NCBI GenBank assembly: GCA_020796225.1
Contig: CM036756.1
Coordinates: 55,334,616 to 55,398,615 of the forward strand
Length of the DNA: 64,000 nt
Source of the DNA: Arion vulgaris
Lineage: Eukaryota > Mollusca > Gastropoda > Stylommatophora > Arionidae
Direction of reading: 5' to 3'
The notes below the pieces were generated by a model, which was not told the origin of the DNA, ran no database searches, and was given only the letters and a program-made list of their open reading frames with translations. Within the stretch, counting starts at the first letter, position 1, and each line of letters starts with the position of its first letter. The translations under genes were made by a program, and so were the position numbers. Below, in pieces: positions 22,379 to 52,420 of this stretch.

Positions 22379-22760
22379 AGGCAAAGGATTGACTTCATTT
22401 CACCGGGTTTGGCTGAAATCGGATGCACATGTCCTAAACGTATAGAAGTCTATGTGTTTAGGGGCCTATCAAACCAATGTGCAACGTATACACGTTCTTG
22501 GCAAAGATCAAACATATCACAAAGAGTGATTAAAATTGATTGTAAAGAACGAACGCCAAGAAAAAGAAGAAGATTTCACCGGGTTTCCCCATATGGCGCC
22601 GTCCCCATATGCCGGGAGCTTTGCACGAAGCACGCAATCCGTAACTCCTGCAATAATCCAAGAGATTTCCTGAAAACATTGCACATCTGTCTCTGTCCGA
22701 ATTCGAACGCACAACCTTTAGTACGGCATGCAAACGATTTAACCACTTCACCATTGAGAC
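22379..22760 (-). mobile_element. SINE-1, reverse, with nested Rep-A insertion
   Basis: Two parts, 22379-22410 (the 3' end: GGATTGACTTCATTTCACCG) and 22573-22760 (the body and head). The head on the minus strand has A box TGGTGAAGTGG and B box GCGTTCGAATTC. The gap is filled by a Rep-A copy bounded by a 14-bp direct repeat. At the head the sequence passes straight into the 34-bp array. Confidence 0.8.
22411..22572 (+). mobile_element. Rep-A subfamily 2, 5'-truncated insertion with 14-bp target duplication
   Basis: Insert of 162 bp from GGCTGAAATCGGATGCACAT to CAAGAAAAAGAAGAAG. It is flanked by a perfect direct repeat ATTTCACCGGGTTT at 22397-22410 and 22573-22586, inside a SINE-1. A variable 5' truncation, an A-rich 3' tail and a target duplication are the classic products of target-primed reverse transcription. 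This is the best proof in the window that Rep-A is a retroposon. Confidence 0.85.
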
Positions 22761-23415
22761 CACTACATTTCATTAACCACTTCACCATTGAGAGCACTAC
22801 ATTTCATTAACCACTTCACCATTGAGAGCACTACATTTCATTAACCACTTCACCATTGAGAGCACTACATTTCATTAACCACTTCACCATTGAGAGCACT
22901 ACATTTCATTAACCACTTCACCATTGAGAGCACTACATTTCATTAACCACTTCACCATTGAGACCACTAAATTTCATTAACCACTTCACCATTGAGAGCA
23001 CTACATTTCATTAACCACTTCACCATTGAGAGCACTACATCATTAACTTCACCATTAGAGCACTACTTTCATTAACCACTTCACCATTGAGAGCACTACA
23101 TTTCATTAACCACTTCACCATTGAGAGCACTACATTTCATTAACCACTTCACCATTGAGAGCACTACATTTCATTAACCACTTCACCATTGAGAGCACTA
23201 CATTTCATTAACCACTTCACCATTGAGAGCACTACATTTCATTAACCACTTCACCATTGAGAGCACTAAATTTCATTAACCACTTCACCATTGAGAGCAC
23301 TACATTTCATTAACCACTTCACCATTGAGAGCACTACATTTCATTAACCACTTCACCATTGAGAGCACTACATTTCATTAACCACTTCACCATTGAGAGC
23401 ACTACATTTCATTAA
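22741..23415 (-). repeat. 34-bp array made of SINE-1 heads, about 20 copies
   Basis: The unit, AACCACTTCACCATTGAGAG plus CACTACATTTCATT, contains the reverse complement of the SINE-1 5' end with its A box (TGGTGAAGTGG). It joins the SINE-1 at 22379-22760 exactly at that element's 5' end. The B box is not part of the unit. Units near 23035-23070 carry several small deletions. Confidence 0.9.
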
Positions 23416-23433
23416 AACTATATATTGATATTA

Positions 23434-23632
23434 CACGTAATCACAAAGTACTGTAGTTTTACAAATTACAAAAACATTGACAAAATACAGCAACGTTTCG
23501 ACCAACAAGGCCTTTATCAAGCAAACGAACAACAGGAGTGACAAATTGATAAAGTCCTTGTTGGTCGAAACGTTGCTGTATTTTGTCCTTGTATTTGTAA
23601 TTTGTAAAACTACAGTACTTTGTGATTACGTG
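23434..23632. repeat. Long palindrome: 87-bp arms, 25-bp loop, hammerhead-like motif
   Basis: Left arm 23434-23520 and right arm 23546-23632 are inverted copies with only a few differences; outer ends read CACGTAATCACAAAGTACTG and its complement. Each arm, read outward from the loop, contains TTGATAAAG(T/G)CCTTGTTGGTCGAAACGTTG (split here for clarity: TTGATAAAG, CCTTGTTGG, TCGAAACGTTG). This resembles the CUGANGA...GAAAC core of hammerhead ribozymes found in Penelope-like retroelements, but with core changes that should inactivate it. Related sequence flanks at 28030-28079 and 28186-28215. Confidence 0.7.
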
Positions 23633-23727
23633 TTTTGCCAATCAAATAGTTTTACTACAGTCTCATCTATTTTGTAAATATATTGATATTCAAACTCAAA
23701 ATCTTGTGTTCCATAACAAAAACAGAC

Positions 23728-24080
23728 TTATGTGTTCAAACTGTCTTGTATGTATTAAACTGAATTCAATATTACTTATATTCAAACTGTCTTGTATGTA
23801 TTAAACTGAATTCAATATGACTTATATTCAAACTGTCTTATGTATTCAAACTGAAATAGATAATTATAAGATAACTTGAACAGCTAATAGTGGAAAGCAA
23901 AGTACAGAAATCATATTGTGGAACAAAGTAGATATTTCGATATGTTGAAAATTTATTTGTGTATGTAACAAAGTAGATTAGTTTCTTGATATCACACAGT
24001 TGGAAAGTAACATTTTATTTTGTGTATGTAACAAAGTAGATTAGTTTCTTGATATCACACAGTTGGAAAGTAACATTTTC
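23728..24080. repeat. Two short direct repeats (about 45 and 64 bp)
   Basis: CAAACTGTCTTGTATGTATT with AAACTGAATTCAATAT recurs about 2.5 times at 23728-23853. TGTATGTAACAAAGTAGATT with CTTGATATCACACAGTTGGA recurs twice at 23948-24080. Confidence 0.8.
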
Positions 24081-24244
24081 AGCAACCATCTGTACTTTAC
24101 ATTTAGTTTAATCTAGTTCTGTTTGTTTTTAGTTGTCGTTGGCAATCTCAATCCTATGACTATACTTCTATATTAATTTGTCAATATATAAAATATGATT
24201 TTTGTTTCGATGATATACATAAGAAAGGTGAAACTTGTACACTT

Positions 24245-24500
24245 AAGGGTCTAAAGTCAACGGAATTACTTCATTGTGCGGGTTTTACACTATATTGTTT
24301 GGTCCCTCTCTGCCAGAAATGGCACGCAACATGCTGATAGTATTGCACAATGCACAAACTCCAGAGCAAAGCAACAAGAATAGGAGTCTCTGGAAAAAGT
24401 GGACCCGTGAACAGAAGGGCGTGGCCCGGATTCAAACCCACGACCTTCTGAATGCTAGGCAATGGCTTAACCACTTCGCCACAGAGACCCTCTGCGCTCT
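24245..24500 (-). mobile_element. SINE-1, near full length
   Basis: Minus orientation. A box TGGCGAAGTGG (reverse of 24471-24481) and B box GGTTTGAATCC (reverse of 24428-24438), spaced as in a tRNA. The body reads CAGAGAGGGACC and ends toward AATGAAGTAATTCC at the left. The head begins GGGTCTCTGTGGCGAAGTGG, a good type example of the family. Pol III transcription is inferred from the boxes. Confidence 0.85.
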
Positions 24501-24501
24501 T

Positions 24502-24614
24502 TACAGTTTCAACAATGCAACATTTTGATATACCAATGTTTACAGTTTCAACAATGCAACATTTTGATATACCAATGTTTACAGTTTCAACAATGCACAT
24601 TTTGATATAACAAT
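24502..24614. repeat. 39-bp tandem repeat, about 2.8 copies
   Basis: TTTACAGTTTCAACAATGCA then ACATTTTGATATACCAATG is repeated directly against the 5' end of the SINE-1 at 24245-24500. It does not visibly include SINE sequence. Confidence 0.8.
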
Positions 24615-24889
24615 GTCATTGCTCGTGCTCAGCCAAATCTTACATTTTATTTGTTTCAATGTTCGTTATAAATCAAAGGTCGATATTTTCTTGTTGGCTA
24701 ATCTCTTTCTCAAAACATTATTTTCTCTCTTCATTCTAACATTGTCTTCTTCTGTGAAATTGAACTGTCATATCTCTGATCTCAGCGATAAATGTAGCAT
24801 GGACTTAATCCCAAGCCTGCACTGTTCTGTTCTCGTGGTTTTAAATTAAACCATAAATACTCCCGCGATTATTTTCTAGAAACAAAATA

Positions 24890-25180
24890 CGGCGCAGCTT
24901 TGTTGCAATGGTTTGGAGTGCTACCCATACGCATACTGCAGGGCGTATCAATAGGAAATATGTTTAGAAATGAAAACATCAGGAAAAATGTGGGTACAAC
25001 ATTCGTACTGAGCTTCATCAATAAACAACAAATTAAATATTTCGGCCACATAAGCAGATTACGAACAGACTCAAAAAGCAATGCTATTCCGATAGAGTGG
25101 ATACAACGCAAAAAGAAGTCCAGACAAAGGTTGGAACTCAGAAGTAACAGAGGCGGTGAAAAATAAATTTGTATGAAGTA
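24890..25180 (+). mobile_element. LINE C-terminal remnant
   Basis: Open plus frame with NENIRKNVGTTFVLSFINKQ, then QIKYFGHISRLRTDSKS and IEWIQRKKKSRQRLELR. The IRN..GT..vl..I.k.Q.k.FGHI.Rl order is the post-RT region and is closest to LINE-Y at 1820-1920. About 90 residues without a stop, then lost. Confidence 0.72.
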
Positions 25181-25329
25181 CACAGAAAAGCCCGTTCTAT
25201 AAATTTCTTATCCTGACACTGTGTAACAAAACAGGATTAGAGAAAAGAAGACAAATGTCACCTTAAATCTAATTTATTATGTACCTTAATGATATTAGTA
25301 CTACATGCCTGAGAAAAATGTCTATTTGT

Positions 25330-26612
25330 GCTATCTTCTTCTATATTCCTCTTTTGTCGTCACACTGCTACCGGGTTGTTGCCCAGTGTAGTAGTTTTCT
25401 GTTTTTGTCTTGCTCTGTTCTGGTGGCTTGGGTGATTGTTATTTTGATCTTTGATAGGATTCTGCTATGCCATCTAACCATCTTTTTCGTGGTCTGCCTC
25501 TCGTCTTCTTTCCTGATGTTCTGTTGTAGAAGACTTTGTATACTGTGGAGTATGGATGCATTCTTATTATGTGGTCAAACCACTTCATTCTTTGTTACTC
25601 AATGTAATTCAAGCAAGATTCTGTACCAGCTTTATTTCTTATGCTGATGTTGGTGACTATGTTTCTCAATGTAATTTAAGCAAGGTTCTGTGCCAGCTTT
25701 ATTTCTTATGCTGATGTTGGTGACTATGTTTCTCAATGTAATTTAAGCAAGGTTCTGTGCCAGCTTTATTTCTTATGCTGATGTTGGTGACTATGTTTCT
25801 CAATGTAATTCAAGCAAGGTTCTGTGCCAGCTTTATTTCTTATGCTGATGTTGGTGACTATGTTTCTCAATGTAATTCAAGCAAGGTTCTGTGCCAGCTT
25901 TATTTCTTATGCTGATGTTGGTGACTATGTTTCTCAATGTAATTCAAGCAAGGTTCTGTGCCAGCTTTATTTCTTATGCTGATGTTGGTGACTATGTTTC
26001 TCAATGTAATTCAAGCAAAGGGTTTTGTGCCAGCTTTATTTCTTATGCTGATGTTGGTGACTATGTTTCTCAATGTAATTCAAGCAAGGTTCTGTGCCAG
26101 CTTTATTTCTTATGCTGATGTTGGTGACTATGTTTCTCAATGCTAATTCGAGGTTCTGTGCCAGCTTTATTTCTTATGCTGATGTTGGTGACTATGTTTC
26201 TCAATGTAATTCAAGCAAGGTTCTGTGCCAGCTTTATTTCTTATGCTGATGTTGGTGACTATGTTTTCAATGTAATTCAAGCAAGGTTCTGTCCACTTTA
26301 TTTCTATGCTGATGTTGGTGACTATGTTTCTCAATGTAATTCAAGCAAGGTTCTGTGCCAGCTTTATTTCTTATGCTGATGTTGGTGACTATGTTCTCAA
26401 TGTAATTCAAACAAGGTTCTGTGCCAGCTTTATTTCTTATGCTGATGTTGGGGACTCTGTTTGCTCATTGTCCATGCTATGTTATGCTGATGTTGGTGAC
26501 TTTGTTTTTTCTGGTGTTGTTGGTAACTTTTCACAGGCACCCCATTTCTTCGCATGTAGATATTTTTTGCTACTGCGCTTTGCTCGTCGTCCGTGTTTGG
26601 CTCTGGTAACAC
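25330..26612 (-). mobile_element. LINE-X C-terminal region, coding segment expanded
   Basis: Reading minus from 26612: YQSQTRTTSKAQ, then KVTNNTRKNKVTNISI, then the 67-bp array (25599-26505), then the tail with HIIRMHP, KVFYNRTSGKK and RGRPRKRWLDGIAES (25450-25560), then TRTEQDKNRKLLHWATTR and the 3' end AGTGTGACGACAAAAGAGG. Outside the array the element is a normal, frame-broken LINE-X end. Confidence 0.82.
25599..26505 (-). repeat. 67-bp array derived from LINE-X coding sequence, about 13 copies
   Basis: The unit contains CAAGCAAGGTTCTGTGCCAG and CTTTATTTCTTATGCTGATG. Its complement encodes VTNISIRNKAGTEPCLNYIE, the conserved segment of the LINE-X post-RT domain also seen once at 10735-10790. 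67 is not divisible by three, so the LINE frame rotates in each copy. Units near 26140-26310 have small deletions. Confidence 0.88.
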
Positions 26613-26929
26613 AAATATTTGCTATAATGAAGTAAACTCAATATCAAACAGCTTTCTTGTGCATTGTGAAACATTTTACGATCTTTATTTTATACTTATT
26701 CCAAGATCTGACATTTGAGCCAAAAGATGAGAGTAGTGATACACGCAAATCTGTACTATAAATAAATACAATGGTGATAATGTAAGAATTATAAAAGACT
26801 GATATGCAAAGCTCTACTGGATTTGTATACTACAGTTAAACCAAAAATGATGTCAGATGTCATCAACAACAGTACTTATAATGTCATGAAGATTACATGA
26901 TTCTTAGCAACAATTTTCACAGTTTCTGT

Positions 26930-27415
26930 GATTTTGGTTGTTTTGTTATAGAATTTCAGTAATGTTAATCAATTGGTTGGTGGCGTCTGTACATTAGGGG
27001 ATAGTGCCTCGGTCTATTGACCCCGACATTTTGAGTTCGAACCACGCTGCGGATAATTTGGTTGCAAATTTTTTCGCGTGGATTTTTACAAAGGACGATG
27101 GCACCACCCGTTCAGAAAGCAATGACAAACTACTGAACGTAATAATGCCTAGAAAAATCACAAACATCGTTAAAAAGCTGGGGTTGATTCGCAAAGTCCT
27201 GTAAAGGATATGCAGTTAACTCACTTCAGTGAATTTGTTGTTGAGTTATAGAAGTTCTACAATTTAGGTCAATTGGTTGTTGAGCTATAGAAGTTCTACA
27301 ATTTGTTTCAACTGTTTGATGAGTTATACAATTTCAACATTTTCTTTACATTTGTTGTTGGAGTTATAGAATTTCAACAATTTTGGTCAATTGATTGTTG
27401 AGTTGTTACATAACT
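26930..27415. repeat. Loose about 45-bp repeat interrupted by SINE-3
   Basis: GTTGTTGAGTTATAGAA with TTCTACAATTTAGGTCAATT recurs four to five times at 27225-27412. One copy (TTGTTATAGAATTTCAGTAA, CAATTGGTTGG) lies before the SINE-3 at 26977. The SINE appears to have landed in the repeat. Confidence 0.65.
26977..27210 (+). mobile_element. SINE-3, tRNA-derived
   Basis: Head GGCGTCTGTACATTAGGGGA, anticodon-like TCTATTGACC, B box GAGTTCGAACC (27034-27044 region). The core contains GTGGATTTTTACAAAGGACG and AGAAAGCAATGACAAACTAC. The 3' side is GATTCGCAAAGTCCTGTAAA GGATATG. Same subfamily as 15950. Confidence 0.8.
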
Positions 27416-28029
27416 TTAAAGAATAGCCAGTTTCTAAATGAACTATACTACAAGAGATAGTTAATGGACAACAACACCAGACAATGATATTCAACATGAC
27501 AATTGTCCAGTTGTTTTGCATCCCGTAAGATGTGAATCGACTGTCATTTCACATTTGAAATCCGTGTATTTGAAAACCCAAGGTGTTAATTCATTTCCTG
27601 ACTTGTTGGATGTCGGTTGCGTGGATTTAACTCACGTTTCGTTTTTCCTTGATTTGAAAAGAGAATGTTGTATATGATGGGTTATTACGTCCAAGCTAGT
27701 TAATAAACGAAGGATAACTTCATGATCGACTAAGTAAGATAAATCCATACCTTCTATTTCTGTTTGACTTAATATGCTGACAGCAACGACGACATGTACT
27801 GATTAGAAATGGCAGTCCTAATGTAGTAGTCGTTCAAGTATAACGATATTTCCTTCTAATGATATTTCTACAGGTCTTGTTACTTTGCATTTAATCATGT
27901 GAAACGAACTAATGATGACATTACCAGTAAATGTGTTTTTGTACGCAAAGTGCAGAAAGGTTAAGCGTATTCCTTTTCTCATTTGGATTAGTTATAAAAC
28001 TTTCTGGACTTAAGCAAATATTCACAAAA
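27416..28029. other. Spacer, no feature seen
   Basis: AT-rich, stop-dense on both strands, no repeat recognised. Confidence 0.45.
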
Positions 28030-28215
28030 TAGATGAGACTGCAGTAAAACTATTTGATTGCCAAAACACGTAAGAAAATATTTTTGTAGGCATTTTTATT
28101 TTTAATCTTGTTTAATGAATACACCCAGGCAGCGGCTACTTTCGATTTTGATCGGTCACATGTTCTTTTACGTGCTCTAATGATTCACGTACTTTGTGAT
28201 TACGTGTTTGGACTT
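28030..28215 (-). mobile_element. Palindrome-family element split by a SINE-2 scrap
   Basis: 28032-28077 (AATAGATGAGACTGCAGTAA, TTTGATTGCCAAAACACGTA) is the reverse of 23624-23675, the flank of the palindrome. 28186-28215 (CACGTACTTTGTGATTACGT) matches the arm end. Between them 28080-28185 is a SINE-2 piece (AATGAATACACCCAGGCAGC). Confidence 0.6.
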
Positions 28216-28539
28216 AAGCAACACACTTTTTTTCTACAATCTTTTATCACTGAAATACTAGCATTTAGAGGACAGTTACGAAATCAACTTCACTTGCCCC
28301 AAATCTGGACATCCACAACTCTGTACTACTCAATTGCCAAGCTGATCTAGTTCATTTATAGATGTAAGGCCACAATTTGAATGTGTCTGTACTACATGTC
28401 GTAAGTGTCTAAGAACCAGAGAGCGATGTGATCACGTTCTGGGAACCATATGTATGTACAGTCTCTCTTATTTTATTTTTCTAAGTCTATGTTAAAACGG
28501 ACTGGGTACAAGACATCACCTTGTTTTTATTCTTATTAA

Positions 28540-28720: not shown

Positions 28721-28744
28721 GAACTTATGTGGTATTTCCCATTC

Positions 28745-32284: not shown

Positions 32285-32668
32285 TTTTTCGTTTTTTGCA
32301 ACATATTAGTGGAAATTAATAACTTATTAAGCCATTACCTCTCGCTCTCAATGTCTTGTGCAACATATTAGTGGAAATTAATAACTTATTAAACGATTAC
32401 CTCTCGCTCTCAATGTCTTGTGCAACATATTAGTGGAAATTAATAACTTATTAAACGATTACCTCTCGCTCTCAATGTCTTGTGCAACATATTAGTGGAA
32501 ATTAATAACGTATTAAACGATTACCTCTCGCTCTCAATGTCTTGTGCAACATATTAGTGGAAATTAATAACTTATTAAACGATTACCTCTCGCTCTCAAT
32601 GTCTTGTGCAACATATTAGTGGAAATTAATAACTTATTAAACGATTACCTCTCGCTCTCAATGTCTTG
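32285..32668 (+). repeat. 62-bp array that runs into a SINE-1 head, 6 copies
   Basis: The unit contains GTGCAACATATTAGTGGAAA and GATTACCTCTCGCTCTCAAT GTCTT. The last copy passes without a break into GGGTTCGTATCTGGACAGTG, the B-box end of a SINE-1. The anticodon-arm part of the SINE head is therefore inside the unit and the B box is just outside it. Confidence 0.88.
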
Positions 32669-32880
32669 GGTTCGTATCTGGACAGTGCCGTTCAGTTCAT
32701 GAGATCTCCAAGAGATCTCTAGTATTGTTTCCGAAGCTACGGAGTTCGTGTTTTGAGCAATACTTTTCGCAAGTGACCATGCCATTTCTAAGAAGAGGAA
32801 CTGATATATGGGGTACAACTCATTGCAGTAAATTTAGTCCTTCGTCCTTAGACATTGAGACCTTTAAGAGGAACTGAGCT
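32660..32880 (+). mobile_element. SINE-1 between two arrays
   Basis: B-box side GGGTTCGTATCTGGACAGTG, body AGCTACGGAGTTCGTGTTTT, then GGGGTACAACTCATTGCAGT and TCCTTCGTCCTTAGACATTG. Its 5' side is continuous with the 62-bp array and its 3' terminus with the 75-bp array, so both ends were amplified. Confidence 0.8.
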
Positions 32881-33696
32881 ATATGGGGTACAACTCATTG
32901 CAGTAAATTCAGTCCTTCGTCCTTAGACATTGAGACCTTTAAGAGGAACTGAGCTATATGGGGTACAACTCATTGCTGTAAATTCAGTCCTTCGTCCTTA
33001 GACATTGAGACCTTTAAGAGGAACTTAGCTATATGGGGTACAACTCATTGCTGTAAATTCAGTCCTTCGTCCTTAGACATTGAGACCTTTAAGAGGAACT
33101 TAGCTATATGGGGTACAACTCATTGCTGTAAATTCAGTCCTTCGTCCTTAGACATTGAGACCTTTAAGAGGAACTGAGCTATATGGGGTACAACTCATTG
33201 CTGTAAATTCAGTCCTTCGTCCTTAGACATTGAGACCTTTAAGAGGAACTGAGCTATATGGGGTACAACTCATTGCTGTAAATTCAGTCCTTCGTCCTTA
33301 GACATTGAGACCTTTAAGAGGAACTGAGCTATATGGGGTACAACTCATTGCAGTAAATTCAGTCCTTCGTCCTTAGACATTGAGACCTTTAAGAGGAACT
33401 GAGCTATATGGGGTACAACTCATTGCTGTAAATTCAGTCCTTCGTCCTTAGACATTGAGACCTTTAAGAGGAACTGAGCAGCTATATGGGGTACAACTCA
33501 TTGTAGTAAATCCAGTCCTTCGTCCTTAGACATTGAGACCTTTAAGAGGAACTGAGCTATATGGGGTACAACTCATTGTAGTAAATCCAGTCCTTCGTCC
33601 TTAGACATTGAGACCTTTAAGAGGAACTGAGCTATATGGGGTACAACTCATTGTAGTAAATCCAGTCCTTCGTCCTTAGACATTGAGACCTTTAAG
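32797..33696 (+). repeat. 75-bp array made of the SINE-1 3' end, 12 copies
   Basis: The unit contains GAGCTATATGGGGTACAACT, CATTGCTGTAAATTCAGTCC and TTCGTCCTTAGACATTGAGA. The first unit is the 3' end of the SINE-1 at 32660. Compare GCAATATGGAGAATCCCGGT, GCAATGAAGTCAATCCTTC in the copy at 38993. One unit near 33476 has a 3-bp insertion. Confidence 0.9.
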
Positions 33697-33904: not shown

Positions 33905-34110
33905 TCGTTAGGTGTCACTGTGGTGTAGAGGTTAGGTGTCACTGTGGTGTAGAGGATATGTATCACTGTGGTGTAGAGGTTAGGTGTCACTGTGGTGTAG
34001 AGGATATGTATCACTGTGGTGTAGAGGTTAGGTGTCACTGTGGTGTAGAGGATATGTATCACTGTGGTGTAGAGGATAGGTGTCACTGTGGTGTAGAGGA
34101 TAGGTGCTCG
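33905..34110 (+). repeat. 24-bp array made of the SINE-2 head, about 8 copies
   Basis: The unit GGTGTCACTGTGGTGTAGAG plus GTTA or GATA is exactly the first part of the SINE-2 that follows at 34080, including its A-box-like TGTGGTGTAGAGG. Two unit types (GGTGTC and TATGTATC) alternate. Confidence 0.92.
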
Positions 34111-34540
34111 TCTCTCGTGCCAAAGGTACAAGGTTCGCTCCCTCGTGGAACCATCCGGATATTTTTCCAGAGATCCCTGATCTCAGTAAAGGTGAGATCG
34201 AGTTCCTAGTAATATCGGAGACGGACGATAAAACGTGGGACCTGGGTTCAATTCAAGCACGTAAAAGAACCCTTGACAGTTTAAAATCAAGAAGATCAGA
34301 CTGGAAATTCACTGTCCTGGCAAATTTCATAAGAAAAAATTAAAATTAGATTCCCACAAAAATATCTTTACTATCTTCAAAATTACATCGTGGACCTTCG
34401 TCTGTGCTACGGAGTTCGTGCACTGCAGCTGAGCTCTTCCTGTGTAAGAAAGAGATCGGAGCACACATGGTTACTCACTGAGGTGCAATTATGATTGTCC
34501 TATCATCAATCAATTAATCAATAAATATTAGTTTCATGTT
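34080..34540 (+). mobile_element. SINE-2, full length
   Basis: Head: TGTGGTGTAGAGG (34087-34099) and B box GGTTCGCTCCC (34132-34142). Body: AGAGATCCCTGATCTCAGTA (includes a short hairpin GAGATC..GATCTC), GGAGACGGACGATAAAACGT, ACGTAAAAGAACCCTTGACA, TTCCCACAAAAATATCTTTA, TGCTACGGAGTTCGTGCACT. 3' end GGTTACTCACTGAGGTGCAA and tail ATCAATCAATTAATCAATAA. Best plus-strand example of the family. Confidence 0.87.
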
Positions 34541-35701: not shown

Positions 35702-36275
35702 CTAATATTTAGTAGTTACATGAGGTTTATCATCATAGCACTCCGGACATGTCCATAAGTGCTCCGATCTCCGCCTCAGCAAATCCAGCAGCGTCCAGCG
35801 GCCCAACATGCCAGTTGGATGTTGATTAATCAATCTCTTTGCATATTTAGTATGTCGTTCTTTATGGGCTGCACCAATATTGACACCCATCTCTCGCAAT
35901 CTGGTCAGCGAGTGGAATTCACAGCAATGAAACTCCTCTGTTCGGAAAGACTCTCTCAATACGTGAAGAATGTAATTTCGATCCATGGCAGCTCCCTCTG
36001 ATATTGTAGCTAAGCCAGCCAATCTATTAGCTCGTTCATTACCCCTATCTCCTGCGTGCCGAGGGACAAAAATAAAGGTGATTTCTCTGATCATTGTCTG
36101 TACCAGTACCTCCACACAGTTGCGTCTCACCATTCTTGATTCTACTTAACGAATCATGCTCATGGAGTCACTGAGTATGAAAACATGAGAGTAGGTGTGA
36201 GATACCAACCATTTCATCGCCTTCGTAACCGTCCGAATCTCCATTGTCAAACTACTTGAGATTTGTTTATGTTTT
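35702..36275 (-). mobile_element. LINE-H fragment with RNase H domain, copy 1
   Basis: Minus strand. From 36250: SLTMEIRTVTKAMKWLVSHT (acidic E of RNase H), VFILSDSMSMI (the DS active-site strand), a stop, then ITFIFVPRHAGDRGNERANR with LAGLA (the P.H.G..GNE.A..LA motif; the usual D is N here). The C-terminal part reads RLINQHPTGMLGRWTLLDLL, RRRSEHLWTCPECYDD, with a C..C pair. RNase H removes RNA from the hybrid in some non-LTR elements. The RT part is not present. Two more copies lie at 39285 and 63597. Confidence 0.82.
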
Positions 36276-36320: not shown

Positions 36321-39035
36321 TGTTTACTACATACTAAACAATATATATATATTAGCGTCTCAGTGGTGAAGCGGTTATGTGGTGTGTCTGTTGTACTGAT
36401 GTTAGTTTACTACATACTAAACAATATATATATATTAGCGTCTCAGTGGTGAAGCGGTTATGTGGTGTGTCTGTTGTACTGATGTTAGTTTACTACATAC
36501 TAAACAAGATATATATATTAGCGTCTCATTGGTGAAGCGGTTATGTGGTGTGTCTGTTGTACTGATATTAGCGTCTCAGTGGTGAAGCGGTTATGTGGTG
36601 TGTCTGTTGTACTGATGTTAGTTTACTACATACTAAACAAGATATATATATATTAGCGTCTCAGTGGTGAAGCGGTTATGTGGTGTGTCTGTTGTACTGA
36701 TGTTAGTTTACTACATACTAAACAATATATATATATTAGCGTCTCAGTGGTGAAGCGGTTATGTGGTGTGTCTGTTGTACTGATGTTAGTTTACTACATA
36801 CTAAACAAGATATATATATATTAGCGTCTCAGTGGTGAAGCGGTTATGTGGTGTGGCTGTTGTACTGATATTAGCGTCTCATTGGTGAAGCGGTTATGTG
36901 GTGTGTCTGTTGTACTGATATTAGCGTCTCAGTGGTGAAGCGGTTATGTGGTGTGTCTGTTGTACTGATGTTAGTTTACTACATACTAAACAAGATATAT
37001 ATATATTAGCGTCTCAGTGGTGAAGCGGTTATGTGGTGTGTCTGTTGTACTGATGTTAGTTTACTACATACTAAACAATATATATATATTAGCGTCTCAG
37101 TGGTGAAGCGGTTATGTGGTGTGTCTGTTGTACTGATGTTAGTTTACTACATACTAAACAAGATATATATATATTAGCGTCTCAGTGGTGAAGCGGTTAT
37201 GTGGTGTGTCTGTTGTACTGATGTTAGTTTACTACATACTAAACAATATATATATATTAGCGTCTCAGTGGTGAAGCGGTTATGTGGTGTGTCTGTTGTA
37301 CTGATGTTAGTTTACTACATACTAAACAAGATATATATATATTAGCGTCTCAGTGGTGAAGCGGTTATGTGGTGTGTCTGTTGTACTGATATTAGCGTCT
37401 CAGTGGTGAAGCGGTTATGTGGTGTGTCTGTTGTACTGATGTTAGTTTACTACATACTAAACAATATATATATATTAGCGTCTCAGTGGTGAAGCGGTTA
37501 TGTGGTGTGTCTGTTGTACTGATGTTAGTTTACTACATACTAAACAATATATATATATTAGCGTCTCAGTGGTGAAGCGGTTATGTGGTGTGTCTGTTGT
37601 ACTGATGTTAGTTTACTACATACTAAACAATATATATATATTAGCGTCTCAGTGGTGAAGCGGTTATGTGGTGTGTCTGTTGTACTGATGTTAGTTTACT
37701 ACATACTAAACAATATATATATATTAGCGTCTCAGTGGTGAAGCGGTTATGTGGTGTGTCTGTTGTACTGATATTAGCGTCTCAGTGGTGAAGCGGTTAT
37801 GTGGTGTGTCTGTTGTACTGATGTTAGTTTACTACATACTAAACAATATATATATATTAGCGTCTCAGTGGTGAAGCGGTTATGTGGTGTGTCTGTTGTA
37901 CTGATGTTAGTTTACTACATACTAAACAATATATATATATTAGCGTCTCAGTGGTGAAGCGGTTATGTGGTGTGTCTGTTGTACTGATGTTAGTTTACTA
38001 CATACTAAACAATATATATATATTAGGATCTCAGTGGTGAAGCGGTTATGTGGTGTGTCTGTTGTACTGATGTTAGTTTACTACATACTAAACAATATAT
38101 ATATATTAGGATCTCAGTGGTGAAGCGGTTATGTGGTGTGTCTGTTGTACTGATGTTAGTTTACTACATACTAAACAATATATATATATTAGGATCTCAG
38201 TGGTGAAGCGGTTATGTGGTGTGTCTGTTGTACTGATGTTAGTTTACTACATACTAAACAATATATATATATTAGGATCTCAGTGGTGAAGCGGTTATGT
38301 GGTGTGTCTGTTGTACTGATGTTAGTTTACTACATACTAAACAAGATATATATATTAGATCTCAGTGGTGAAGCGGTTATGTGGTGTGTCTGTTGTACTG
38401 ATGTTAGTTTACTACATACTAAACAAGATATATATATATTAGGATCTCAGTGGTGAAGCGGTTATGTGGTGTGTCTGTTGTACTGATGTTAGTTTACTAC
38501 ATACTAAACAAGATATATATATATTAGCGTCTCAGTGGTGAAGCGGTTATGTGGTGTGTCTGTTGTACTGATGTTAGTTTACTACATACTAAACAATATA
38601 TATATATTAGCGTCTCAGTGGTGAAGCGGTTATGTGGTGTGTCTGTTGTACTGATATTAGCGTCTCAGTGGTGAAGCGGTTATGTGGTGTGTCTGTTGTA
38701 CTGATATTAGCGTCTCAGTGGTGAAGCGGTTATGTGGTGTGTCTGTTGTACTGATATTAGCGTCTCAGTGGTGAAGCGGTTATGTGGTGTGTCTGTTGTA
38801 CTGATATTAGCGTCTCAGTGGTGAAGCGGTTATGTGGTGTGTCTGTTGTACTGATGTTAGTTTACTACATACTAAACAATATATATATATTAGCGTCTCA
38901 GTGGTGAAGCGGTTATGTGGTGTGTCTGTTGTACTGATATTAGCGTCTCAGTGGTGAAGCGGTTATGTGGTGTGTCTGTTGTACTGATATTAGCGTCTCA
39001 GTGGTGAAGCGGTTATGTGGTGTGTCTGTTGTACT
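36321..39035 (+). repeat. 2.7-kb array of SINE-1 heads with higher-order pattern
   Basis: Long unit about 83-85 bp: GCGTCTCAGTGGTGAAGCGG, TTATGTGGTGTGTCTGTTGT, ACTGATG, then a spacer TTAGTTTACTACATACTAAA with (TA)n. Short unit 50 bp: the head alone, joined by GATATTA. Long and short units alternate in an ordered way, with GCGTCTC and GGATCTC variants in blocks. The head carries the A box TGGTGAAGCGG. The last copy continues into a SINE-1 (38993). About 35 A boxes without B boxes. Confidence 0.93.
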
Positions 39036-39240
39036 GAAAGTTGTGGGTTTGAATCAGGACAGAGACACATTTTCAATTTTTTTTCATGAGATTCATAGGA
39101 CTGTTGCTGGAGCTACGGTGTTCATGCTTTGTGCAATGCTCTGTGTAGATCGCATGTCCTCTCTGCCGACAGGGACGGAGCAATATGGAGAATCCCGGTG
39201 CAATGAAGTCAATCCTTCATTTTTTAGACATAAATATTTA
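38993..39240 (+). mobile_element. SINE-1, parent of the head array
   Basis: A box TGGTGAAGCGG (39002-39012), B box GGGTTTGAATC (39045-39055), body AGCTACGGTGTTCATGCTTT, GACAGGGACGGAGCAATATG, 3' end GTGCAATGAAGTCAATCCTT. It is followed by a (TTTAG)n run at 39236-39280, probably the retroposon tail. Confidence 0.88.
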
Positions 39241-41073: not shown

Positions 41074-41363
41074 ATGAAGCATTATCTTATGTACAATCTC
41101 TCATTTACTCAAAAACACACACACCCCCCTCTACCAGTCCCCAAAATTTGAACTTGTCTCCAGATTAACAAGAGAATAATTTGCTTTAAACCACTAATCC
41201 AATTTCTACGTGCTTAATATGAAGCATTATCTTATGTACAATCTCTCATTTACTCAAAAACACACACACGCCCCTCTACCAGTCCCCAAAATTTGAACTT
41301 GTCTCCAGATTAACAAGAGAATAATTTGATTTAAACCACTAATCCAATTTCTACGTGCTTAAT
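41074..41363. repeat. 145-bp direct duplication
   Basis: GAAGCATTATCTTATGTACA through TTCTACGTGCTTAATAT occurs twice back to back (41076 and 41221), over 97 percent identical by eye. It begins exactly at the 3' tail of the Rep-A at 40828. Confidence 0.92.
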
Positions 41364-41539
41364 ATGAACAGTGGATCTACGTTTTATGGTCCTACTACGA
41401 TAGGGCAAGGCACTTGATATCAAGTACATCATGGATCTCTGGAAAGTAGCGTTATCGCTCCATGCGGAAAGCGAACCGTTACTCTTGGAGTTAGAGTCCA
41501 GCACCACCATAACTCCACAACAAAGAAATATCCCTCATT

Positions 41540-41880
41540 AAATTCAATGGGCACTGTTTACACTGTCAACGGTAAGAACATTTTGCAACTATTCTGTTTA
41601 CACTGTCAACGGTAAGAACATTTTGCAACTATTCTGTTTACATTGTCAACGGTAAGAACATATTGCAACTATTCTGTTTACATTGTCACGGTAAGAACAT
41701 ATTGCAACTATCTGTACATGTCCGAGAACTTTAACTATTCTGTTTACATTGTCAACGGTAAGAACATATTGCAACTATTCTGTTTACATTGTCAACGGTA
41801 AGAACATATTCAACTATTCTGTTTACATTGTCAACGGTAGAACATATTGCAACTATTCTGTTTACATTGTCGTAAGAACA
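41540..41880. repeat. 40-bp array touching the SINE-2 3' end, about 8 copies
   Basis: The unit contains CTGTTTACATTGTCAACGGT and AAGAACATATTGCAACTATT. Late units (41680-41880) carry small deletions. The array stops at the 3' end of the minus-strand SINE-2. Confidence 0.88.
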
Positions 41881-42300
41881 TTCACTTTGCACTTCCCGGT
41901 GAGTAACTATGTTTTTTTCACGTCTTCTATTCTTTACAGCAGAAGATCTCAGCTATTTTATGTCATAACTCCACTTCAGGCACTCAGCTGGAGAGTGTCC
42001 CCCTCGATTATAGATATCAGAGAAGATAGGTTAAAGAAAATATTTTGTAGGAATTTTTATTTTTCTAATGAATTTCGTTCAGGCAGGAGCTTTCCAGCTT
42101 GCTCTTCTCGACTTAGAACTGCCACGAATTGTTGGGTGCTCAACTTGAACATGGGACCTACGTTTTGTCGTCCGTCTCCGATAGGAGTAGGAACTTGATC
42201 TCACCTTAACTGAGATAAGAGATAACTTTTAAAATATCATGAAGGAGCGAACCGTGTACTTTTAGAACGAGAGGCAACCACATAGCCTCTACACTACAGA
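41880..42300 (-). mobile_element. SINE-2, reverse, between two arrays
   Basis: 3' end CTTCCCGGTGAGTAACTATG at the left, body GTAGGAATTTTTATTTTTCT and CGTCCGTCTCCGATAGGAGT, head at the right (GGAGCGAACCGTGTACTTTT, GCCTCTACACTACAGAGACC). Full length. Arrays abut both ends. Confidence 0.85.
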
Positions 42301-42562
42301 GACCACTAACTATTCTGTATCATCTGCTAAAGTTACCTAGACTGTGCTAATAAATCCTACGCCGAAGAGACCACTAACTATTCTGTATCATCTGCTAAAG
42401 TTACCTAGACTGTGCTAATAAATCCTACACACAGGACTACTAACAATTTGTATCATCTGCTAAAGTTACCTAGACTGTGCTAATAAATCCTACGCCGAAG
42501 AGACCACTAACTATTCTGTATCATCTGCTAAAGTTACCTAGACTGTGCTAATAAATCCTACA
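42298..42562. repeat. About 65-bp array at the SINE-2 5' end, 4 copies
   Basis: The unit contains AGAGACCACTAACTATTCTG, TATCATCTGCTAAAGTTACC and TAGACTGTGCTAATAAATCC. Its first 8-12 bases repeat the outermost part of the SINE-2 head (ACAGAGACCAC). The third unit has small deletions. Confidence 0.88.
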
Positions 42563-45325: not shown

Positions 45326-45329
45326 CTTG

Positions 45330-45975: not shown

Positions 45976-46319
45976 TCTCTGCAGAGAATCGTGCCGTTTT
46001 TTATATTCAAAATATTAGTTTTCTCATTTGTATATCCTATATCAAACCTTTTACCTTTACTTTTAAGCTACTGTAATATAAATATATGTGTTATTTTCTT
46101 CCATCCATGATATTATGATTACTCTTCGGTAGCACTTGCATATGAATACATTCATTGATATTTTCACTGCTTTATCAATAATTCATTCCTTACAGTCAAA
46201 CATTGCTATAGGATAAATACAGGCGCTAAGCAATCAGTTTTAGTTTAAACAGAAAATACAAAGCGACAGTTCCAAATCAATTGTTAGCGAAATAAACGAC
46301 GCACGTTAACGACAAAAAG
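45976..46319. other. Spacer, no feature seen
   Basis: AT-rich, nothing recognised. Confidence 0.4.
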
Positions 46320-46640
46320 TGTCACATTCCGGAACGACCTCACCGTGTCTGAAAAAGAAGGAAAGGATGAACGTACTTTTTGGCTCGGATCCTATATACA
46401 AGATGAATTGAGTGGATGAGAAATGATCACGAAAGATTGAATAACGTTCGGTGAGAGAAAGAAAGGAAGATGTCTGAAATTGTCAGGTCACTTGAACCCA
46501 ATGATCACTTAAATTCTGATGGAACTATGCTACCTGTTACTGGGAACTAAATACGGGTCCGCAACGTACTCACTTTCTCGACGTAGCCCCCACATACGAC
46601 AAAAAGCGATTAACTTGGTGGATAGGAAGTACACAAACAA
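46320..46640 (+). mobile_element. Fragment related to the GC-rich element at 53.8-55.3 kb
   Basis: TCCGGAACGACCTCACCGTG (46329) matches TCCGGAACGACCTCACAG at 55025, and AACGTACTCACTTTCTCGAC with ACATACGACAAAAAGCGATT aligns loosely with 55065-55115. Low identity, same order, so probably one family. Confidence 0.45.
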
Positions 46641-46679
46641 AGATACATATATCAAGTCTTCTTCTACCAACCTTGTTCG

Positions 46680-47640
46680 GACATCGATTTGTGTACTTCT
46701 TAAACAGTTAGTGGTCAACCAGAGTCCATGTACATCTCTGTATAGTTTGTCTTGGAGTGACATCGATTTGTGTACTTCTTAAACAGTTAGTGGTCAACCA
46801 GAGTCCATGTACATCTCTGTATAGTTTGTCTTGGAGTGACATCGATTTGTGTACTTCTTAAACAGTTAGTGGTCAACCAGAGTCCATGTACATCTCTGTA
46901 TAGTTTGTCTTGGAGTGACATCGATTTGTGTACTTCTTAAACAGTTAGTGGTCAACCAGAGTCCATGTACATCTCCGTACAGTTTGTCTTGGAGTGACAT
47001 CGATTTGTGTACTTCTTAAACAGTTAGTGGTCAACCAGAGTCCATGTACATCTCTGTATAGTTTGTCTTGGAGTGACATCGATTTGTGTACTTCTTAAAC
47101 AGTTAGTGGTCAACCAGAGTCCATGTACATCTCCGTACAGTTTGTCTTGGAGTGACATCGATTTGTGTACTTCTTAAACAGTTAGTGGTCAACCAGAGTC
47201 CATGTACATCTCTGTATAGTTTGTCTTGGAGTGACATCGATTTGTGTACTTCTTAAACAGTTAGTGGTCAACCAGAGTCCATGTACATCTCCGTATAGCT
47301 TTTCTTGGAGTGACATCGATTTGTGTACTTCTTAAACAGTTAGTGGTCAACCAGAGTTCATGTACATCTCCGTACAGTTTGTCTTGGAGTGACATCGATT
47401 TTTGTACTTCTAAAACAGTTAGTGGTTAACCAGAGTCCATGTACATCTCCGTATAGCTTTTCTTGGAGTGACATCGATTTGTGTACTTCTTAAATAGGTA
47501 GTGGTCAACCAGAGTCCATGTACATCTCCGTATAGTTTGTCTTGGAGTGACATCGATTTTTGTACTTCTAAAACAGTTAGTGGTTAACCAGAGTCCATGT
47601 ACATCTCCGTATAGCTTGTCTTGGACTGATATGGGGATTT
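46680..47640. repeat. 79-bp tandem array, about 12 copies
   Basis: The unit contains CTTCTTAAACAGTTAGTGGT, CAACCAGAGTCCATGTACAT and TTGTCTTGGAGTGACATCGA. Variants TCTGTATAG and CCGTACAG alternate at first. Later units carry TTTTGTACTTCTAAAAC. No transposon link recognised. Confidence 0.93.
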
Positions 47641-48028
47641 GCCATGTGTTTTCTCTCTATTCAGTGTATGTTGGACATTATTGCAGTATGTGTGTCTCTG
47701 CCACATGTGCATATGTCAGAAGGGCATTTTTTGTCCTTGTTAAACAGGTGGTAACCAGCCTATTGCTCTTGTTTGTAGCTGAAAAATGACAACCTGTTCT
47801 TCTCTATTGAGTTGCTAGTATGCATCATCTTTTTCATGGTCTCTGCAACCTCTATCAAATACCAGTAAGAAAATTACATGCTAGAGATTAATTATTGCTT
47901 TTGTCAACTGTAATCAAATATGTTAATACTAGTTAACACACACACAGAAATAAACATGATATGTGAATGTTTCGCTCATAGTAAATAGTATATGTCAATA
48001 CAGAAGAAATAACTAACATGGTCCAAGG
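47641..48028. other. Spacer; last part resembles the 58-bp array unit
   Basis: 47993-48028 (TATGTCAATACAGAAGAAAT, AACTAACATGG) matches the 58-bp unit that starts at 48500, placing a unit on the left of the SINE-1 at 48029. The rest is unassigned. Confidence 0.55.
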
Positions 48029-48240
48029 GCAAAGGACTGACTTAATTGCACCAGATTTCTCCATACGGCCCCGTCCCTGTCAGCAGAGACTGCCGAGAGC
48101 ATTGTACAAAGCATGACCTCCGTAGTACCGGCAATAATCATATAGATCTCATGAAAAATTGGAATTGTCTCGGTCCGGGATTGAATTCAGAACCTCCAGT
48201 AACAAAGGCAAACGACTTAATCACTTCGACATTCAGATCT
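48029..48240 (-). mobile_element. SINE-1, reverse, inside array-like sequence
   Basis: 3' end CAAAGGACTGACTTAATTGC, body CCTCCGTAGTACCGGCAATA, B-box side GGGATTGAATTCAGAACC, A-box side CGACTTAATCACTTCGACAT. Flanked by AACATGG (left) and AACATAG (right), a possible short target duplication in a 58-bp-unit context. Confidence 0.72.
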
Positions 48241-48297
48241 AACATAGAAGACGGCCAACATTATTGTTGCAAAATATATCAATACATAACAAAAACG

Positions 48298-48470
48298 TAG
48301 CAGGAAAAGTGTCTTTAAAGCTTTTTTTCGGTCCACCAGCAGAACGTCTGCCCCTTTCTAGTTCGCCACACATCAACTGTTTTTGGTTGCGTTTATCAAG
48401 CATCCGAGCTACGTGACCGGATCGGTCTATTTCACATGGGCCTTCTGCAACAGGGTGAAGGCCCAAGTGA
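48298..48470 (-). mobile_element. LINE C-terminal tail fragment
   Basis: Minus strand open frame: DRSGHVARMLDKRNQKQLMC, GELERGRRSAGGPKKSFKDT. The GHVARM....R..K.L..GEL..G.R..GGPKK.FKD pattern is a standard LINE ending. Nearly 60 residues without a stop. Confidence 0.72.
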
Positions 48471-48499
48471 GATGGGCTGTAAGCCCATAAACATTAATA

Positions 48500-49170
48500 T
48501 TGATATACTACTCGTATATCAATACAGAAGAAATAGCTAACATGGAAGACCACCAACATTAATATCCCAACATATATCAATACAGAAGAAATAGCTAACA
48601 TGGAAGACCACCAACATTAATATCCCAACATATATCAATACAGAAGAAATAGCTAACATGGAAGACCACCAACTTTAATATTTCAAAACATATCAAAACA
48701 GAAGAAAAACTTAACATGGAAGACCACCAACATTAATATCCCAACATATATCAATGCAGAAGAAAACATATATCAATACAGAAGAAATAGCTAACATGGA
48801 AGACACCAACATTAATATCCCAACACATATCAATACAGAAGAAATAGCTAACATGGAAGACCACCAACATTAATATCGCAACATATATCAATACAGAAGA
48901 AATAGCTAACATGGAAGACCACCAACATTAATATCCCAACATATATCAATACAGAAGAAAAGCTTGACATGGAAGACCACCAACATTAATATCGCAACAT
49001 ATATCAATACAGAAGAAATAGCTAACATGGAAGACCACCAACATTAATATCCCAACATATATCAATACAGAAGAAATAACTAACATGGAAGACACCAACA
49101 TTAATATCCCAACATATATCAATACAGAAAAGCTTGACATGGAAGACCACCAACACTGATATTTCAATAT
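48500..49170. repeat. 58-bp tandem array, about 12 copies
   Basis: The unit contains AATAGCTAACATGGAAGACC, ACCAACATTAATATCCCAAC and ATATATCAATACAGAAG. Variants AGCTTGACATGG and CTTAACATGG occur singly. Minus frames are open in part. Confidence 0.92.
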
Positions 49171-49744
49171 CATATCGTTAACCAAAATTCGTTTTGGAGA
49201 TCGCGAAACTTTAAACAAAAATTTAATTAACAAATCTGTGCAATCAGGATTTGATCCGATTTCTTCCCATATTTAATCAGTAATGTTAACCCTTGAAGCA
49301 CACTAGATATTGACTTGTACATGCTTTATTTAGGTATTTCATTACACGGTGATATCCTATCATGACCTGTTAGCTAAGTAGTTCAAGGTTCCTGTGACTT
49401 TATGCAATGATCATCAATTAATGACATAGTTTAATGTGGAACTGATTAGAACAGTCTATAGAAATCTCACATTTCAAATTCTAAAGTTCGTTTCAAAATT
49501 CGGGAACACACTAAGATTTAATTTGAACGAAATCTACAGGATGGATAACAGTAATTTTTTGCAGGCAGTCTTATATACCTCACGACCTTACAAATTCTTG
49601 TTTAACTAATTGGTAGGTAGCTTAGTTGATGCACAGGCCGTTTTTTGTTATATAATTTTGCATAAGCACAACAGCATGAAAATCAAAGTTTAGAATTTAC
49701 AGTAATACACAAAATGGCGGTGAATTGATTTATTGATTGAATGA
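49171..49744. other. Spacer, no feature seen
   Basis: Unassigned AT-rich sequence. Confidence 0.4.
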
Positions 49745-52190
49745 TAAGACCATCATCATTACACTTCAGTGAGTAACATTATATGTAACAGTATTACACT
49801 TCAGTGAGTAACATTATATGTAACAGTATGTGTAACAGTATTACACTTCAGTATGTAACATCATGTGTAACAGTATTACACTTCAGTAAGTAACATCATG
49901 TGTAACAGTATTACACTTCAGTGAGTAACACCATGTGTAACAGTATTACACTTCAGTGAGTAACATCATGTGTAACAGTATTACACTTCAGTGAGTAACA
50001 TCATGTGTAACAGTATTACACTTCAGTGAGTAACACCATGTGTAACAGTATTACACTTCAGTGAGTAACATCATATGTAACAGTATTACACTTCAGTGAG
50101 TAACACCATGTGTAACAGTATTACACTTCAGTAAGTAACATCATGTGTAACAGTATTACACTTCAGTGAGTAACATCATGTGTAACAGTATTACACTTCA
50201 GTAAGTAACATCATGTGTAACAGTATTACACTTCAGTGAGTAACACCATGTGTAACAGTATTACACTTCAGTGAGTAACACCATGTGTAACAGTATTACA
50301 CTTCAGTAAGTAACATCATGTGTAACAGTATTACACTTCAGTGAGTAACATCATGTGTAACAGTATTACACTTCAGTAAGCAACATCATGTGTAACAGTA
50401 TTACACTTCAGTGAGTAACATGATATGTAACAGTATTACACTTCAGTGAGTAACACCATGTGTAACAGTATTACACTTCAGTGAGTAACATCATGTGTAA
50501 CAGTATTACACTTCAGTGAGTAACACCATGTGTAACAGTATTACACTTCAGTGAGTAACACCATGTGTAACAGTATTACACTTCAGTGAGTAACATCATG
50601 TGTAACAGTATTACACTTCAGTGAGTAACACCATAGGTAACAGTATTACACTTCAGTGAGTAACACCATGTGTAACAGTATTACACTTCAGTGAGTAACA
50701 CCATGTGTAACAGTATTACACTTCAGTGAGTAACACCATGTGTAACAGTATTACACTTCAGTGAGTAACATCATATGTAACAGTATTACACTTCAGTAAG
50801 TAACATCATGTGTAACAGTATTACACTTCAGTGAGTAACATCATGTGTTACAGTATTACACTTCAGTAAGCAACATCATGTGTAACAGTATTACACTTCA
50901 GTGAGTAACACCATGTGTAACAGTATTACACTTCAGTGAGTAACACCATGTGTAACAGTATTACACTTCAGTGAGTAACACCATGTGTAACAGTATTACA
51001 CTTCAGTGAGTAACACCATGTGTAACAGTATTACACTTCAGTGAGTAACACCATGTGTAACAGTATTACTCTTCAGTGAGTAACATCATGTGTAACAGTA
51101 TTACACTTCAGTGAGTAACCATGTGTAACAGTATTACACTTCAGTGAGTAACACCATGTGTAACAGTATTACACTTCAGTGTGTAACATCATGTGTAACA
51201 GTATTACACTTCAGTGAGTAACACCATGTGTAACAGTATTACACTTCAGTGAGTAACACCATGTGTAACAGTATTACACTTCAGTGAGTAACATCATGTG
51301 TAACAGTATTACACTTCAGTGAGTAACACCATGTGTAACAGTATTACACTTCAGTGAGTAACATCATATGTAACAGTATTACACTTCAGTAAGTAACATC
51401 ATGTGTAACAGTATTACACTTCAGTGAGTAACACAATGTGTAACAGTATTACACTTCAGTGAGTAACATCATGTGTAACAGTATTACACTTCAGTGAGTA
51501 ACACAATGTGTAACAGTATTACACTTCAGTGAGTAACACCATGTGTAACAGTATTACACTTCAGTAAGTAACATCATGTGTAACAGTATTACACTTCAGT
51601 GAGTAACACCATGTGTAACAGTATTACACTTCAGTGAGTAACACCATGTGTAACAGTATTACACTTCAGTGAGTAACACCATGTGTAACAGTATTACACT
51701 TCAGTGAGTAACACCATGTGTAACAGTATTACACTTCAGTAAGTAACACCATGTGTAACAGTATTACACTTCAGTGAGTAACACCATGTGTAACAGTATT
51801 ACACTTCAGTGAGTAACACCATGTGTAACAGTATTACACTTCAGTGAGTAACACCATATGCAACAGTATTACACTTCAGTGAGTAACACCATGTGTAACA
51901 GTATTACACTTCAGTGAGTAACACCATGTGTAACAGTATTACACTTCAGTGAGTAACACCATATGCAACAGTATTACACTTCAGTGAGTAACACCATGTG
52001 TAACAGTATTACACTTCAGTGAGTAACACCATGTGTAACAGTATTACACTTCAGTGAGTAACACTATGTGTAACAGTATTACACTTCAGTGAGTAACACC
52101 ATGTGTAACAGTATTACACTTCAGTGAGTATAACCATGTGTAACAGTATTACACTTCGGTGAGTAACCATGTGTAACAGTATTACTCCTT
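49745..52190 (-). repeat. 2.4-kb array of 35-bp units made of the SINE-2 3' end, about 70 copies
   Basis: The unit TATTACACTTCAGTGAGTAA plus CACCATGTGTAACAG contains the SINE-2 3' terminus (compare CATTGCACTTCGGTGAGTAA, CCATGTGTGC at 30540). It begins beside a SINE-2-like tail (GATTGAATGATAAGACCATC at 49735) and ends by passing into a SINE-2 body at 52160. Variants ACACCATG, ACATCATG and AGTAAGTAAC are mixed along the array. Confidence 0.94.
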
Positions 52191-52420
52191 TTACTGGTAC
52201 GCATGTGTTCTCCGATCTCATTCTTGCACAGGAAGATCTCAGCTGCAATACAGGAACTTTGTAGCACCAGTGAGAGTCCCCGATGTAATTTTAAAGATAG
52301 GAAAGTTATTTTTGTAGGAATTTTACTTTAAATCTTGTCTAATTAATTTTGCATGGGTAGCGGCTTTCCATCTTGTTCGTCTCGATTGTGGCCACGCTGG
52401 TGCACACTTAAACAGTTTTA
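52160..52420 (-). mobile_element. SINE-2 body, head missing
   Basis: CGATCTCATTCTTGCACAGG, AAGATCTCAGCTGCAATACA, GTCCCCGATGTAATTTTAAA, AATTTTGCATGGGTAGCGGC, ending near GCTGGTGCACACTTAAAC. The tRNA-like head is absent. Confidence 0.8.

Follow-up and report, generated by a model that had tools for sequence, protein, structure and literature searches.

The stretch considered here, called the window below, comprises 64,000 nucleotides of the slug Arion vulgaris (GenBank assembly GCA_020796225.1, contig CM036756.1, positions 55,334,616 to 55,398,615 of the forward strand), and it holds many minisatellite-like tandem arrays, some of which lie across the 5′ heads of tRNA-derived short interspersed nuclear elements (SINEs). 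Tandem Repeats Finder (TRF) returned 90 rows for the window, which, after exclusion of shorter-period and overlapping rows, correspond to 37 arrays with periods of 20–145 bp, spanning 22,465 bp or 35% of the sequence. The genome that was searched amounts to 1.52 Gb in 3227 contigs, and in 25 comparison stretches of 10 kb, taken at fixed steps on contigs 1 and 2 (L009–L033), 90 arrays with a cover of 15.4% were found; that is, the window is a dense spot for tandem arrays compared with these stretches. A protein piece of the window matched an Arion vulgaris protein at 93% across 34% of its length. All eleven arrays named in an initial annotation of this DNA were recovered by TRF with edges within ~15 bp, and the links to SINEs that it had drawn for them were upheld by family alignments and hidden Markov models (HMMs).

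Four retroposon-like families and the 3′ ends of a long interspersed nuclear element, LINE-X, were defined by self-comparison, alignments and HMMs. SINE-1 (~240 bp) and F4 (a SINE of ~260 bp) carry a tRNA-like head, SINE-2 is ~450 bp long, and F3 (~260 bp), which ends in a (GAA)n tail, was handled as headless. What we take to be the A and B boxes of the SINE heads was identified by eye from the box consensus, and with boxes assigned in this way the units of the head arrays derive from tRNA-derived SINEs with RNA polymerase III (pol III) boxes. A scan of the window with ARAGORN called no tRNA gene, an Rfam scan of the window gave no match, and pattern scans of viral contigs and of genome contigs returned 0 matches.

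Five arrays of the window lie across a SINE head. On the minus strand, the SINE-1 head array at 22739–23415 consists of 20 copies of a 34-bp unit, which joins ~11 bp of flank to 23 bp of head and has its edge right after the A box (TRF); on the plus strand, the SINE-1 head array at 32297–32668 holds six copies of 62 bp (~18 bp of flank and 44 bp of head), with its edge at the B box (TRF and alignment). The other plus-strand arrays, both from TRF, are that of the SINE-2 at 34082–34533 (33909–34106; 24/48 bp, 24 bp in eight copies, with TAGGTG as a direct repeat at the edges) and that of the SINE-1 at 38993–39233 (36322–39037; units of 83/50 bp, with ~33–39 bp of flank and 45 bp of head). The fifth, at 42298–42561 on the minus strand, is formed by four copies of 68 bp across a SINE-2 5′ end, with CTACACTAC direct repeats at its edges (TRF). 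Higher-order units can be seen in 36322–39037 (83/50 bp) and, as an alternation of 24 and 48 bp, in 33909–34106.

Together with six arrays from other loci (L003, L012, L044, L047, L057 and L072), these five make up the 11 head arrays that were read; a twelfth, in a SINE-2 of L029, was counted but stands outside this set. In all 11, the unit is ~6–60 bp of genomic flank joined to the head, and its SINE-side edge falls right after the A box, ahead of the B box or where the B box starts, or, at 42298, at ~+9, so that the SINE-side ends range from ~+9 to +55 and a whole B box is present in 0 of 11 units. The flank part in L047 is similar to an F3 3′ end. According to the family alignment, the flanks in head units differ among SINE copies, and the unit was therefore not copied from the element RNA. 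The interval between the A and B boxes had been pointed out by the initial annotation as a place to look for array edges, and indeed none of the 11 head arrays runs on past the start of the B box; however, units of such size over a 5′ end would fairly often end there, and no claim is made that the interval is special in itself.

As for the frequency of such arrays, 5 of the 18 window heads, including two extra SINE-1 heads found by HMM, lie inside an array unit where 0.84 would be expected (p = 0.0008), and the number rises to 7 of 18, for 1.69 expected, when heads within 30 bp of a unit are included (p = 0.0005); this pattern was noticed before it was tested, and before the two HMM heads were added the straddled heads numbered 5 of 12 inside 22379–52420 and 0 of 4 outside it. 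For the rest of the genome, SINE-1 copies were selected by their body with a query lacking the head, because heads were few in a first sample; from the best 40 of 3777 candidates, with the window's own dropped, 39 loci were used. An array covers the head in 4 of the 39 (71 bp in L044, 80 bp in L047, 83 bp in L057 and 34 bp in L072), against 0.71 expected at the rate of a 250-kb sample (p = 0.0055), and 5 of 39 heads lie within 30 bp of an array against 1.63 expected (p = 0.022). Seven further loci yielded one head array (L003) and, in L002, an array over a 3′ end. When all heads outside the window are pooled, a pooling chosen afterwards, 7 of 70 are in arrays against 1.28 expected (p = 0.0003), and element midpoints of the 250-kb sample lie in arrays in 0 of 76 cases.

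In addition, a head word and a body word of SINE-1 were counted through the genome. The head word CGAAGTGGTTAA, an A-box word, occurs 5549 times (reversed-word control 307), and the body word GTGCAATGCTCT occurs 2650 times (control 14). Among the first 100 places listed for each, on contig 1, the head word gave 42 loci in 28.8 Mb and the body word 99 loci in 62.5 Mb, so that over this listed part the loci of the two words are about equally dense (1.46 and 1.58 per Mb); of these loci, 4 of 42 were tandem with the head word and 1 of 99 with the body word (p = 0.028). Tandem pairs at a spacing of 30–60 bp numbered 1831 for the head word (control 2) and 104 for the body word (control 0). On the first 40.3 Mb of contig 1, 6 distinct head arrays, with unit lengths of 24, 27, 35, 42, 46 and ~52 bp, were found against 0.45 expected at the body rate, and the body-word pairs formed 16 arrays among the 100 of 104 pairs listed. 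Extrapolated to the genome, this gives ~226 head arrays (95% interval 83–492) against ~17 body arrays, a ratio of ~13; that is to say, some hundreds of starts at one defined spot, which can be compared with unduplicated sister copies of the same SINE.

Arrays are not concentrated on elements in general, and their excess is located at the tRNA-like heads. It is quite probable that tandem duplication has a hot spot at the 5′ heads of tRNA-derived SINEs, and the data support duplication after insertion, at the DNA level and with growth in place, with SINE-1 heads preferred over the SINE-1 body. The initial annotation had proposed a process tied to retroposon structure: for the 5′ heads this holds (5 of 18 in the window, 4 of 39 body-selected copies and the ~13-fold word ratio), but 3′ ends and, in the window, LINE positions show a weak excess or none.

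The edges of the arrays bear on their birth and growth. The outer edges are in phase within 6 bp in 26 of the 37 window arrays (10.1 expected), in 16 of 25 when at least 4 copies are present (7.0 expected), and in 31 of 60 outside the window (21.6 expected, p = 0.006), where 6 of 66 arrays touching the end of a stretch were dropped. Direct repeats of at least 6 bp are found at the edges of 12 of 35 window arrays against 13.6% in controls, two short-period arrays being excluded; outside the window, repeats of at least 8 bp occur in 9 of 48 arrays against 3.4% in controls, and those of at least 6 bp in 13 of 48 against 16.6%. Ancestral bases appear, by eye, to be kept in the outermost copy of 32297–32668 and in the body-side copy of 22739–23415. 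In-phase ends, edge repeats and ancestral edge copies fit tandem duplication between short repeats followed by growth within the array. Secondary structure of the unit was rejected as a trigger, with 4 of 37 units in the most stable 10% (Kolmogorov–Smirnov p = 0.19), and for three stretches of LINE-X the predicted folding was not superior to that of shuffled versions.

Taken as a whole, the explanation that we consider best, and moderately probable, is a general background of local duplication to which a hot spot at SINE heads is added. Minisatellites would arise at many places by local tandem duplication of 20–90 bp, aided by short direct repeats, and would then expand in place; at a head, the SINE would insert first, and a stretch that begins some tens of bp upstream and ends at a point between the two boxes would then be duplicated and amplified at the DNA level. 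TFIIIB and TFIIIC would sit at this preferred stretch. Because of this location, and because 5′ ends that lack a head show no hot spot in the window, our preferred reading of the cause is the pol III promoter, although a tentative one: occupancy by TFIIIB/TFIIIC, or pol III transcription, may stall replication forks and lead to template switching. Slightly more tentative is the form of this idea in which the promoter itself is the hot spot, with forks stalling upstream of the B box, so that each SINE insertion would plant a nursery of minisatellites and A boxes would be multiplied ahead of a single B box. More broadly, transcription-linked events may be a source of the arrays. A narrow literature search on pol III, replication forks and tandem duplication at tRNA genes and SINEs found no paper that unites these subjects, from which no absence is claimed. 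Of the human element-derived minisatellites, Ahmed and Liang were able to explain only 6% (PMC3389668). In the slug Deroceras laeve, TRF is reported to have contributed 28.39% tandem repeats (PMC12506671), and a hot spot at heads may partly explain the richness of slug genomes in tandem repeats.

Several results weigh against a special role of the heads. Predictions were fixed before sampling, and in the sample taken first, which comprised 20 stretches of contig 1 with 10 kb each, the excess at heads was absent, with 1 of 18 against 0.38 expected (p = 0.32); with five stretches added, the 250-kb sample gave 2 of 24 against 0.44 (p = 0.07), and the body-selected sample was added after the null result of the first. 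The heads of F4 in the window are straddled in 0 of 4 cases. As to the word counts, they cover exact matches to a single word each for the head and the body of one family, the total of head arrays is extrapolated from contig 1 alone, and when copies within 1 kb are counted as tandem the contrast becomes 4 of 42 against 2 of 98 (p = 0.066). The agreement in phase of the two ends is weak outside the window for arrays of at least 4 copies (17 of 36 against 12.5 expected, p = 0.08). The remaining unfavourable points concern headless ends and array overlap, and are taken up with the two rival explanations that follow.

The first of these holds that any 5′ insertion junction provokes duplication, for example through nicks made by the LINE endonuclease, and such junction nicks were proposed by Ahmed and Liang to explain 136 cases in which part of an Alu is duplicated at its 5′ end (PMC3389668). 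The arrays do straddle 5′ junctions, and the headless 5′ ends, after 2 of 45 in the first sample (p = 0.23), are weakly in excess in the 250-kb sample, with 3 of 50 inside units against 0.91 expected (p = 0.06) and 6 of 50 within 30 bp against 2.09 (p = 0.017); there they cannot be told from heads (2 of 24 against 3 of 50, p = 0.53), and with more heads included the comparison is 6 of 63 against 3 of 50 (p = 0.37). A junction effect predicts equal rates at headless ends, and the 250-kb sample does not speak against it. However, headless 5′ ends (F3 and truncated SINE-2) lie in arrays in 0 of 12 cases in the window, and a junction does not predict that the 11 units reach no farther into the SINE than the B box, which unit size predicts in part; we regard this explanation as unlikely.

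It is about equally unlikely, and in our estimate slightly more so, that no element-specific process exists and that random duplications between short direct repeats sometimes land on element ends because both are dense. In its favour, array overlap is at chance level both with curated elements (8 against 8.1 expected) and with blind repeat intervals (8 against 10.2), so that no enrichment is seen, the first random sample was null, direct repeats at edges are general, and for 21 of the 37 window arrays the nearest curated retroposon is more than 30 bp away, one of these arrays (9686) sharing a LINE-X segment. The proposal of the initial annotation that array edges are enriched at element termini divides in the same manner: a curated element end lies inside or within 10 bp of a unit in 10 of 37 arrays against 4.0 expected (p = 0.005), but with the ends of blind-annotation intervals the count is 6 against 4.9 (p = 0.37), or 12 against 7.4 within 30 bp (p = 0.05). 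Random landing is opposed by the 4 of 39 body-selected heads and by the 13-fold difference between head and body at similar locus density.

It is improbable that the order of events was generally the reverse, with elements inserting into or beside arrays that already existed. One counter-case is present: the minus-strand SINE-1 at 48018–48239 was placed by alignment within a unit of the 58-bp array at 48515–49162, with an alignment score of 82 against a shuffled maximum of 28. Between 48018 and 48515, this SINE-1 and perhaps another inserted piece split what seems to be one older 58-bp array. The units of the head arrays, on the contrary, contain element sequence, so that the element preceded the array. 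Least probable is the view, also raised in the initial annotation, that the reverse transcriptase switched templates in the course of target-primed reverse transcription and so made the first tandem copies. In its favour, arrays occur at element termini and the 3′ array at 32793–33696 is almost wholly element sequence. Against it, head units are not element RNA sequence alone but carry ~6–60 bp of flank that other copies lack, which mostly refutes it for heads; some junctions match direct repeats shared by the flank and the head (CTACACTAC, TAGGTG); and arrays of a similar kind are also present where no element is recognised.

Minisatellites derived from elements are already known, as are satellites derived from SINEs, and the arrays described here, with tandem units of tens of bp, belong with the former; for part of the 37 arrays only, the unit is homologous to a dispersed element that continues past the array. 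In the squamate SINE-derived satellites of Vassetzky et al. (2023, PMC10702118), arrays likewise come from part of a tRNA-derived SINE, arose independently in several families and are continued by SINE sequence at their edge, but the main unit of snakes, positions 42–108, takes in the B box together with some of the body, whereas here it is flank plus A-box head, with the whole B box in none of the 11. One unit region common to many loci, as in an sSat, is not seen, the lengths and flanks differing over the few tens of loci inspected. Ahmed and Liang (2012, PMC3389668) describe human minisatellites from many element types, some partial 5′ Alu duplications and direct repeats at some edges, there mostly of 7 bp, all of which have a likeness here; their Alu repeats, however, are said to come from any region of Alu, while in the present genome a single region of SINE-1 is much favoured when set against one region of its body.

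The birth model of Haber and Louis (1998), in the form cited in PMC6947457 and PMC3389668, places the birth between short direct repeats, which are found at the edges here above chance as a set, not in every array, and in that cited form it contains no preferred SINE position, unlike the present case. In limpets, PcH-sat from Nin-SINE (PMC11121367) is also a gastropod satellite containing a SINE segment, but it is a single pericentromeric family whose SINE part is without A and B boxes, compared with many local head arrays here. Within the literature compared, a head-specific birthplace with units ending before the B box appears to be something new.

At 3′ ends the picture is weaker: 3 of 26 window 3′ ends lie inside a unit against 1.2 expected (p = 0.11), a count that rises to 7 of 26 when ends up to 30 bp from a unit are included (p = 0.007), the first sample gave 1 of 51, and the 250-kb sample 2 of 59 (p = 0.29) or 4 of 59 within 30 bp (p = 0.23). 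The SINE-1 copy with the head array 32297–32668 also has a plus-strand 3′ array of 12 copies of 75 bp (32793–33696; TRF and alignment), separated from the former by its body at 32669–32792 (plus strand, alignment). The minus-strand array at 49758–52185, with 68 copies of 35 bp (TRF, self-comparison and alignment), had been assigned to a SINE-2 3′ end; the array is real but lies inside the SINE-2, ~36 bp short of that end. Conversely, the 40-bp array at 41554–41871 (minus strand; TRF, HMM and reading by eye) was described as merely abutting a SINE-2, to which it is indeed adjacent, but its unit includes the 3′ tail of this SINE-2 (41875–42504). Two plus-strand arrays at F3 3′ ends, both placed by alignment, had been overlooked: 17304–18048 (11 copies of 67 bp) begins in the (GAA)n tail of the F3 at 17069–17312, and 41074–41368 (two copies of 145 bp) lies between an F3 3′ end and a SINE-2. 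In addition, TRF gave four copies of 39 bp at 27232–27404 on the plus strand, 7 bp past the 3′ end of the F4 at 26960–27225, and three copies of 39 bp at 24500–24616, strand not assigned, which lie 9 bp upstream of a SINE-1 whose head ends at 24491.

Three arrays involve LINE-X, all found by TRF and self-comparison. Its 3′ sequence forms 13 copies of 67 bp at 25593–26506 on the plus strand, in two TRF rows, and six copies of 30 bp at 10991–11178 on the minus strand, while 9686–10099 (eight copies of 51 bp, strand not assigned) holds a LINE-X segment; the arrays at 9686 and 10991 are the only ones among the window arrays whose units are not mutually unrelated. The general statement that arrays start repeatedly at the termini of several families and at LINE positions is, for the most part, not borne out beyond chance.

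Some minor observations concern the elements themselves. A minus-strand SINE-1 copy at 22369–22763, delimited by self-comparison, alignment and HMM, holds a 3′ fragment of F3 (22411–22573) with ATTTCACCGGGTTT on both sides, resembling a target-site duplication, and according to HMM another SINE-1 copy, at 14429–14773, is interrupted by ~138 bp of other sequence. A G+C-rich stretch at 53900–55340 (48% in 54001–56000) contains F3-like sequence at 55165–55303 and is perhaps a longer parent of F3. LINE-like coding pieces at 35702–36145 and 63585–63999 are 91% identical and have an RNase H-like end, and PF00075 is present in 2 of the 7 relatives found for them. Among long arrays, one comparison stretch of contig 1 (L013) consists of tandem arrays over 90% of its 10 kb, and the window array at 56743–60645, with 93 copies of 42 bp, is 99% homogeneous; since its period of 42 is divisible by 3, long reading frames stay open on either strand.

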